Source of the DNA: Deltaproteobacteria bacterium RBG_13_61_14
Lineage (GTDB): Bacteria > RBG-13-61-14
Assembly (NCBI GenBank): GCA_001797815.1
Contig: MGQK01000106.1
Span: forward strand, 44,390 to 53,520
Length of the DNA stretch: 9,131 bases
Reading direction: 5' to 3'
Each line of letters begins with the position of its first letter. Position 1 is the first letter of the stretch. The notes under the pieces were generated by a model that was not told where the DNA came from, ran no database searches, and saw only the letters and a program-made list of their open reading frames with translations. The translations under genes and the position numbers were made by a program. Shown here one piece after another: positions 6,534 through 8,566 of the stretch.

Positions 6534-6800
6534 CAACGACTTGCCCTTGGAAGAGCGTTGGGCCACCAGGACCCAGAAGGTATGGAGATACTGGAGCATG
6601 GGATAAACCTCTTGAAAGATCTTGGCATGAATGCTACCGTCTTACTCGGAGAATATATCAAGGGAAATATCCTGGCCCAATCTGGCCAAATCGAGATGGC
6701 CTGCGAGACCCTCGAAAAAGCGCTTACCATGATGGAAGAGACGGGCATGATGTACTGGCCGGACCGGGCGCGGGAGGTGTTGGTGAGGCTTGAGGAGTGA
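6534..6800 (+). pseudogene. 5'-truncated TPR-protein remnant
   Basis: The frame is open from just after a TGA at 6531-6533 to a TGA at 6798-6800 and encodes about 88 residues. It reads as TPR-like helix pairs: ALGRALG, then GMEILEHGINLLKDLGM, then LLGEYIKGNILAQSGQIEMA, then CETLEKALTMMEETGMMYW, ending in DRAREVLVRLEE. That pattern resembles the C-terminal TPR end of large bacterial regulators or ATPases (for example adenylate-cyclase/AAA-type TPR proteins). No start codon with a Shine-Dalgarno is present at a sensible place, and the homology-like frame begins abruptly after the SDR operon. I therefore read it as the tail of a larger gene whose front was lost. A TTG at 6558 could in principle start a small 80-residue protein, but that is less likely. 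The assignment to a family is by pattern only. Confidence 0.55.
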
Positions 6801-6859: not shown

Positions 6860-7378
6860 ATGGAGTACCTGGAATTGGATACGAGTTTGAGTGACGAGGC
6901 CAAGGCCATGTCAAAGACCGCGGAGAAGTTCGGCATGGAGGTCATGCGGCCGGCGGGGATTGAGCTTGACAGGCTGGCTGAGCCGGAGGAGGTGATCGCA
7001 GACGGCTCGGTGCTGTGGGACGTTATCAAGCAGTTCCGCGAGCTGGGCTTCCACAAGACGGCCTTTGCCAAGGAGTTCGGCGGCATGCGGGAGGATATGG
7101 ACCCCAAGACCGGGCCTCTTGTCTCCGAGGCCATGGGCTACGCCGATGCGGGCCTGGCAGTGAGTCTCGGGGCCTCGGGCTTCCCTTTTCAGATGGCCGC
7201 GTTCAGCCAGGAGCCGGAGCTGAAGGACATGGTGCGGGCTTACTGCGAGGACACCGAGGGAAAAATAATCGGTTGCTGGGCCATCACCGAACCTGACCAC
7301 GGCTCGGTAATAGCCCAGCAACCGACCATATCGGCTTCCAGGTCTTCAGAGTACTCCCGGGCCCAGTTCCGCACTTGA
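6860..7378 (+). pseudogene. Acyl-CoA dehydrogenase, N-terminal fragment (+ strand copy)
   Basis: The start is sound: ATG 6860 with GGAGGT (6849-6854) 5 nt upstream. The first ~149 residues are the N-terminal helical domain of an acyl-CoA dehydrogenase, with MRPAGIELDR (29-38), ELGFHKTAFAKEFGG (61-75), MGYADAGLAVSLGA (92-105) and the FAD-contact motif GCWAITEPDHGS (138-149). Such enzymes oxidise acyl-CoA to enoyl-CoA and are normally about 380-400 residues long. Here the genuine sequence ends at about 7301-7307, inside the FAD motif. The last ~23 codons to TGA 7376-7378 are antisense of the opposing copy and not dehydrogenase-like. The middle beta domain and the C-terminal catalytic helical domain are missing, so it cannot be a working enzyme. 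Either the gene was broken by a rearrangement or this is a chimeric assembly join. Confidence 0.85.
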
Positions 7379-7734
7379 GAGTCGGGTGATATAACTGCAA
7401 ATGCAAATGGCATGCTTGATACCGCAAGACTGATGGCCAGCCCTGCGTCCGCGTAACCCAGTTGTTCACTTATCAGAGACATTGCCATTGGAGGCATTTT
7501 TTCCATCATGCCGCCGAAGGCCTTGGGTATCATCATCTTGTGAAAACCCAATTCGCGGGAATTCCTGTATACCTCCCACAAACGCGAGCCCTTTGCGATC
7601 ACCTCGGCAGGATCGTGAAGCTTGTCCAGCTCGATACCAGCGGGACGCATGACACCCATGCCGAACTCTCTTGCAGATTCCTGCATGGCTCTTGCCTTGC
7701 GGCCGATGCTAGCTCCAAGATCCAGGTATCCCAT
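7240..7734 (-). pseudogene. Acyl-CoA dehydrogenase, N-terminal fragment (- strand copy)
   Basis: Read on the minus strand from ATG 7734, this is a second acyl-CoA dehydrogenase N-terminus, paralogous to the + strand fragment: MRPAGIELDKLHDPAEVIA (29-47), ELGFHKMMIPKAFGG (61-75), LGYADAGLAISLA (92-104) and GCWAITEP (138-145). By eye about half the residues match the + copy in a gap-free alignment. The genuine sequence stops near 7301. The frame then runs through antisense of the + copy to a TAA at 7240-7242. The C-terminal two thirds are absent. The start is fixed by AAAGGAGG (complement of 7741-7748) 6 nt upstream; the frame extends further up to 7833, but that part is not dehydrogenase-like. 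It lies 67 nt downstream of the acetoacetate decarboxylase family gene on the same strand and was probably cotranscribed with it. Confidence 0.85.
7269..7325. repeat. Inverted repeat at the junction of two acyl-CoA dehydrogenase fragments
   Basis: The arms 7269-7293 and 7301-7325 are reverse complements at 22 of 25 positions, around a 7-nt spacer (7294-7300). Each arm encodes the same GCWAITEP motif on its own strand. The three mismatches are all third-codon-position synonymous changes (GCC/GCT, ATC/ATT, GAA/GAG). The repeat is thus coding homology between two paralogs brought face to face, not a regulatory hairpin. The segment 7301-7307 fits both genes (Gly-Ser of the + copy, Glu-Pro of the - copy) and is the likely microhomology at the join. 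Confidence 0.85.
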
Positions 7735-7740
7735 TAATTT

Positions 7741-7748
7741 CCTCCTTT
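7741..7748 (-). promoter_or_regulatory. Shine-Dalgarno of the - strand acyl-CoA dehydrogenase fragment
   Basis: On the minus strand this reads AAAGGAGG, 6 nt before ATG 7734. It decides the start over the longer open frame and shows that the gene front is intact. Confidence 0.8.
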
Positions 7749-7801
7749 GCTGCCCTAATAAGCGCCTTTCATAAACAAGCTCGCGGGAGAGGATAATGAT
7801 C

Positions 7802-8566
7802 CTACCGGAAGCGCATGCTATAAGTGTTAACAAACCACCTTATACCCGCGATACCCACCGGCAGGTTGTATCTTGAGCCCAATATATCCATAACCACGAA
7901 GCGGCCATTTATCGGGACGCCGGACGTAAGCTTTGATATCGGGTCATATTCCGATTCGCGGAGGGTAACCTTAGCTTCCGCGGACCAGGACTCCTGGATG
8001 ACTTCCTTGGGCCTGAACAGCCAGATCGGCTGGATAGCGAAGAACTGGCCCGGCCCTCCGGCATTGAAGGTTTTAAAGTCGAAGACCGGCCGGGGAGAGT
8101 CCTCCAGCTCTTTGCGTCGGGCCTCGATTTTCATTACCTCGATCCCGCGGCGTGAAACGCTTGCAGTGACCCTGTCATCTTTTTCTTCGAAGGTGAATTG
8201 ACCGAACTTTTTGGGATACCCCAGGATTTCCCGACCATAGATCAAGCCCGTATCGTCGTCCACGATCATCCACGGACAGTGCAAGCCGCTTCCCAAGGGC
8301 GTGCGCACGTGAACCAGGACCGCGGCCTCCTTATAAGGCACAGTGAAAGAGGTCTTGGTGTAATCGGCTATGAACAGGGTTGCCAAAGCGGGCTCCGCCG
8401 GCCTCATGCCCAACGGCAATATCTTCTTGACCTCACTCGGATAGAGCGGCACCTCCGCGAGCACGAACCGCGCGTTCTCCCACATTTTCACGTTACCCCT
8501 GATCGGCTCCAGGATACTCTTTACGTTTTCCATAAACGATGAAGCGCCTTCCTTTTCGTCAAGCAT
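7802..8566 (-). CDS. Acetoacetate decarboxylase family protein
   Basis: This 254-residue protein is close to the usual acetoacetate decarboxylase length (about 245). The signature GREILGYPKKFGQF (111-124) contains the Lys-Lys pair: by analogy with the Clostridium enzyme, Lys119 would form the Schiff base and Lys120 would lower its pKa. YKEAAVLVHV (78-87) carries the conserved Glu80 region, and GLHCPWMIVDDDTGLIYGRE (94-113) fits the family fold. True family members turn acetoacetate into acetone and CO2; several relatives do other Schiff-base chemistry, so the substrate is open. The protein is soluble, with no signal peptide. ATG 8566 has AAAGGAGG 7 nt upstream, a strong site. The downstream partner on the same strand is the broken acyl-CoA dehydrogenase, pointing to an acyl-CoA or 3-keto-acid breakdown operon. 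Confidence 0.9.
   Translation of the reverse strand: MLDEKEGASSFMENVKSILEPIRGNVKMWENARFVLAEVPLYPSEVKKILPLGMRPAEPALATLFIADYTKTSFTVPYKEAAVLVHVRTPLGSGLHCPWMIVDDDTGLIYGREILGYPKKFGQFTFEEKDDRVTASVSRRGIEVMKIEARRKELEDSPRPVFDFKTFNAGGPGQFFAIQPIWLFRPKEVIQESWSAEAKVTLRESEYDPISKLTSGVPINGRFVVMDILGSRYNLPVGIAGIRWFVNTYSMRFR

Follow-up and report, generated by a model that had tools for sequence, protein, structure and literature searches.

Two acyl-CoA dehydrogenase gene fragments joined tail to tail in a shared motif: a possible scar of a single deletion

The window analysed here, a stretch of 9,131 bp (C106:44390-53520) inside a 122.8-kb scaffold, contains the 5' parts of two paralogous acyl-CoA dehydrogenase (ACAD) genes, A and B, which meet tail to tail and are both truncated in the same conserved motif. 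We favour the reading, at a probability of roughly 45%, that the joint is the real scar of a single deletion that took the 3' half from each of two convergent paralogs. The mechanism proposed is standard, and what was found is a rearrangement scar of the ordinary kind, if it is not an artefact. If it is real, the codons used for a conserved protein motif provide both the direct and the inverted repeat for a deletion, and two genes were killed at once. If it is an artefact, it serves as a warning that the 'microhomology' at a joint can be intrinsic to the motif of a protein family. The features of the joint and its surroundings are listed in Table 1.

Table 1 Features at and around the joint of the two ACAD fragments, in window positions.
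Feature	Position	Strand	Remarks
A, 5' part of ACAD gene	6860-7307	+	PF02771; 56% to P0001 residues 1-149
B, 5' part of paralogous ACAD gene (MGYLDLG...GCWAITEP)	7301-7734	-	PF02771; 55% to P0001 residues 1-150; 54% to A
Chance read-through of the A frame into antisense B (VIAQQPTISASRSSEYSRAQFRT, stop)	7308-7378	+	in ORF 6860-7378; without homology to the expected continuation DWILAG...
Chance read-through of the B frame into antisense A, to a stop	7240-7300	-	in ORF 7240-7833
Joint CGGCTCGG	7300-7307		common to A (H-G-S-D codons) and the reverse complement of B (T-E-P codons)
Imperfect hairpin of the two motif copies	7269-7325		arms 7269-7293 and 7301-7325; 22/25 complementary; 7-nt spacer
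Acetoacetate-decarboxylase-family (ADC) gene	7802-8566	-	PF06314, E 8.9e-38; upstream of B, same strand

Fragment A consists of 149 codons (MEYLELD...GCWAITEPDHGS) and the initial base of the Asp codon that would come next, and a Shine-Dalgarno-like GGAGGT lies upstream of it. Fragment B starts with an ATG at 7734, preceded by AGGAGG. The sole Pfam match in each of the two open reading frames is Acyl-CoA_dh_N (PF02771; E 1.2e-7 for the frame of A and 8.3e-9 for that of B), and the middle (PF02770) and C-terminal (PF00441) ACAD domains are absent from both. Compared with the complete ACAD family architecture (PF02771/PF02770/PF00441), both stubs are N-terminal domains that end in the family signature. 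Aligned to P0001, a full-length 406-aa homolog from genome G026 of another phylum, A and B both end at one homologous site, GCWA(I/L)TEPxHGSD, at residues 149 and 150. This bears out the preliminary description, made from the sequence alone, in which two ACAD genes were joined inside the same conserved motif. A and B share 54% protein and 64% DNA identity, and an inverted alignment of their surviving 5' arms covers 741 bp (64%); they are diverged paralogs, as had been proposed, and not the self-foldback of one gene. Neither stub contains a stop or a frameshift. Judged by its domain content, neither can be a working ACAD, with the FAD-binding middle and the helical C-terminal domain gone. The gene predictions for A and B should be marked as truncated, whether or not the joint is an artefact.

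At the joint, an overlap of 7 bp (GGCTCGG, 7301-7307) is certain. This segment had been described as fitting both reading frames; the fit is real, and the overlap is probably the full octamer of 8 bp, provided that the proline codon of B was CCG. On the A side, CA-CGGCTCGG encodes H-G-S and contributes the opening base of the D codon that should follow; on the B side, ACC-GAG-CC(G) on the other strand encodes T-E-P, its reverse complement being (C)GGCTCGGT. The repeat runs in the same direction in A and in antisense B, forming a direct repeat at the joint. Random joins within this scaffold show at least 7 bp of microhomology with a probability of 6e-4 (0.06% of trials), and the rarity of such an overlap by chance speaks for the deletion. 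The hairpin formed by the two motif copies has its best register, among those tried, at the 22 of 25 complementary positions already noted in the preliminary description, with the runner-up at 9/25, and the arms differ at three positions that, judged from the sequence, change no amino acid (GCC/GCT, ATC/ATT, GAA/GAG). As a single strand it folds at -21.6 kcal/mol (z = -7.0 relative to shuffles).

The microhomology has a source in the protein motif itself. TEPxxGSD is usually written in this genome's codons as ACCGAGCC...GGCTCGGAC, in which CCGAGCC-N8-GGCTCGG provides reverse-complementary ends, and a perfect 7-bp inverted repeat CCGAGCC..GGCTCGG is present in 12 of the 21 motif-bearing ACAD genes examined in this genome. 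Because the motif is self-complementary, the microhomology is no independent coincidence, and neither it nor the coincident breakpoints require recombination between A and B; any foldback of two such ACAD genes at TEPxxGSD would display it. The microhomology joint described earlier is itself supported. A wider claim appears very unlikely: that, where a GC-rich genome encodes dozens of ACAD paralogs, TEPxxGSD, as a self-complementary DNA element, acts as an inbuilt break site at which foldbacks rearrange the paralogs. The pattern ACCGARCC-N2-12-GGYTCGGT, which is narrow in codon choice, matched in 15 of 386 genomes and its reversed control in about ten, a result close to chance. The match in the window is the only one that reaches ACAD sequence on both sides, and none of the 385 other genomes searched yielded this hairpin joint. 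Within the narrow codon choice of the search pattern, these matches give no sign of a recurrent hotspot.

A role for the present structure, either as functional short proteins or as a hairpin acting as a regulatory element or terminator, is scarcely credible. Ribosome-binding-like sequences precede both open frames, and the hairpin is strong. However, the homology of the two coding motifs explains the hairpin fully and there is no T-run; the stubs lack two of the three ACAD domains and end in antisense read-through, and no counterpart of the joint was found in the other genomes searched.

We postulate that the ancestor carried complete, diverged ACAD genes, A on the plus strand and B on the minus strand behind the ADC gene, arranged tail to tail as a long imperfect inverted repeat. 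The plus strand would have contained two copies of CGGCTCGG in the same orientation, one at the H-G-S-D codons of A and the other in antisense B, across from T-E-P. During replication, the arms could pair as a hairpin and bring the two octamers near each other, and slipped pairing between the octamers would then lose the interval, with any spacer and the 3' half of each gene; by the length of the 406-aa homolog, each half would have measured about 0.77 kb. Two N-terminal stubs with collinear flanks would remain. Instability of direct and inverted repeats, slipped misalignment included, is established (PMC3519483). The arrangement proposed here resembles RecA-independent, inverted-repeat-assisted deletion by slipped misalignment in that each arm of the inverted repeat holds one copy of a short terminal direct repeat and the interval between the copies is lost. 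It differs in that the arms are diverged paralogs at 64% DNA identity instead of a perfect palindrome, in that the octamer arises incidentally from a protein motif, and in that the ancestor is one that we infer.

This deletion is the most economical history because one step explains both the joint and the loss of the two C-terminal halves. The preliminary description had offered microhomology-mediated inversion or deletion, template switching at a foldback, or an artificial chimera. The microhomology joint and the choice between a rearrangement and an artefact are genuine, but an inversion is unneeded, since a deletion between 8-bp direct repeats suffices. An inverted template switch or an inversion in vivo, with A and B originally in the same direction, seems unlikely. 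A strand of A ending 3' in CGGCTCGG could have annealed to CCGAGCCG in the TEP codons of B and been extended from there, with B copied in reverse; the same octamer and the self-complementary motif allow for this. Such an event would nevertheless leave the chromosome open unless a second joint formed, and it takes more steps than a deletion. An inversion would also leave reciprocal pieces, and none is seen, whether a 3' half of A, a 3' half of B or a second broken gene of the subfamily; convergent A and B genes and one deletion are preferred for this reason.

The missing halves were sought throughout the assembly. The genome contains 42 matches to the C-terminal and 44 to the N-terminal ACAD domain, nearly all in full-length frames; the exceptions are A, B, a shortened gene on C120 and a gene on C124 that a scaffold gap interrupts. 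Scaffold gaps aside, the assembly contains no N-terminal ACAD orphans other than A and B, which argues for the deletion. With P0001 as query, no C-terminal half of the A/B subfamily was detected in the assembly, contig ends included, again in favour of the deletion; the same query readily recovers A and B (55-56%) and a full-length cousin at 40%. A scan of genome contigs with B as query returned only relatives at 27-36%, viral contigs gave no match to A, and plasmids gave no match. Neither intact copies of A or B nor a true continuation of either partner were found elsewhere in the assembly. The phylum comprises three genomes in all, and the intact versions that the preliminary description had proposed to look for are also missing from the other two: at the cut-off used, these hold no A/B-type gene and only distant cousins of the ACAD gene Z described below.

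The shortened gene on C120 (L042, G000:C120, 4252-4464, minus strand) is a damaged ACAD with an internal deletion that leaves an in-frame mini-gene of 71 aa. Here the first 20 or so residues (MALDFSLTEEQVALREAARK) run directly into the C-terminal end (VYLDALQLHGGYGYMREF...), and the two parts meet at a possible short homology that is EAARK-like.

There is an appreciable chance that the joint of A and B instead arose when the DNA was amplified, the library prepared or scaffolds merged, the intact 3' halves residing in unassembled sequence such as a short unbinned contig. The assembly (4.7 Mb, 132 contigs, 95% complete, 0.5% contamination) is a gapped one. The scans for foldbacks, palindromes and gaps are based on 423 kb of assembly stretches, in which 32 small N-gaps occur, as in short-read assemblies; the window itself is an exact gap-free stretch bounded by two runs of N. 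Gapped scaffolding, open frames in A and B without decay and a second oddly shortened ACAD on C120 are all consistent with an artefact. So is the form of the joint, which is inverted, carries an intervening deletion and shows 7-8 nt of complementarity, as do chimeras of multiple displacement amplification. Of 475 such chimeras, 85% were inverted, and most had 2-21 nt of complementarity (PMC1855051). The joint resembles these chimeras in its inverted orientation, its intervening deletion and a complementarity within that range, but here the two paralogs are broken at the same homologous codons, and the assembly contains no intact parents. Further points weigh against an artefact. Neither C-terminal half was found, even at contig ends, in an assembly that is 95% complete, and true reads would normally outvote a chimeric read. 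The overlap is far below assembler k-mers, and a de Bruijn assembler would not by itself create one of only 7 bp. Within the 423 kb, no other foldback between coding sequences was seen, the remaining palindromes being mostly intergenic by appearance.

A chimera between organisms was considered and is disfavoured. The two flanks (51 kb and 71 kb) correlate at 0.88 with each other in tetranucleotide composition and at 0.90-0.95 with other contigs of the genome, compared with 0.19-0.38 for contigs of G173/G311 and 0.62-0.66 for a Desulfobacterales contig. Both flanks carry the same genome signature, so the joint does not connect two organisms, in agreement with the favoured deletion.

Several observations weigh against that deletion. 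The stubs, free of stops and frameshifts as they are, call for a recent event or else for a joint that is not real. The gapped scaffolds and the internally deleted ACAD on C120 count on the same side. No relative with a convergent A/B pair was found, in a phylum of only three genomes, and no ADC gene lies beside the A/B-type homologs examined in other phyla.

The ADC gene next to B is a probable partner in B's former operon. A similar ADC-ACAD pair, in the same gene order as ADC-B, is located at C106:41910-43849, about 8 kb upstream of A; its ADC-family gene holds a scaffold gap and is followed by the full-length ACAD Z (40% to P0001). The pair recurs, with this gene arrangement, in genome G001 (G001:C211), which belongs to the same taxonomic order. 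The nearest relatives of A and B belong to genomes of one family outside this phylum, and in a phylogenetic tree A and B form one well supported group with genes of G026, G173 and G311, the order within which is not resolved. The GC content at third codon positions is 0.59 in B, compared with 0.83 in A and 0.71-0.87 in the neighbours tested. The low value in B, the nearest relatives outside the phylum and the A/B subfamily not being seen in the phylum's two other genomes suggest that A and B were perhaps acquired horizontally.

Other parts of the scaffold show features of their own. The scaffold start (C106:1-25000) has a GC content of 0.38-0.51 compared with about 0.59 and a different tetranucleotide signature, and is a possible genomic island or misbinned end. 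Imperfect palindromes of 60-180 bp occur at G000:C106:102559-102740 and 85457-85560, at C53:83991-84138, 88414-88488 and 123486-123550, and at C130:18015-18090. They are mostly intergenic by appearance, and some have common sequence (GGGGCGCGATTCATCGCGCCC; GATTTTGGATTTC); they possibly represent a REP/MITE-like repeat family. Within the window, a short TPR-like frame of 80 aa (6558-6800) upstream of A resembles the tail of a larger protein and is possibly another gene remnant. The protein encoded at 1502-2782, which has no Pfam match, and that at G000:C106:31339-32760 are alike at the N-terminus, with a signal peptide followed by ...IPMQIDE and LLFQIDE, respectively, and may constitute an uncharacterised paralogous family.
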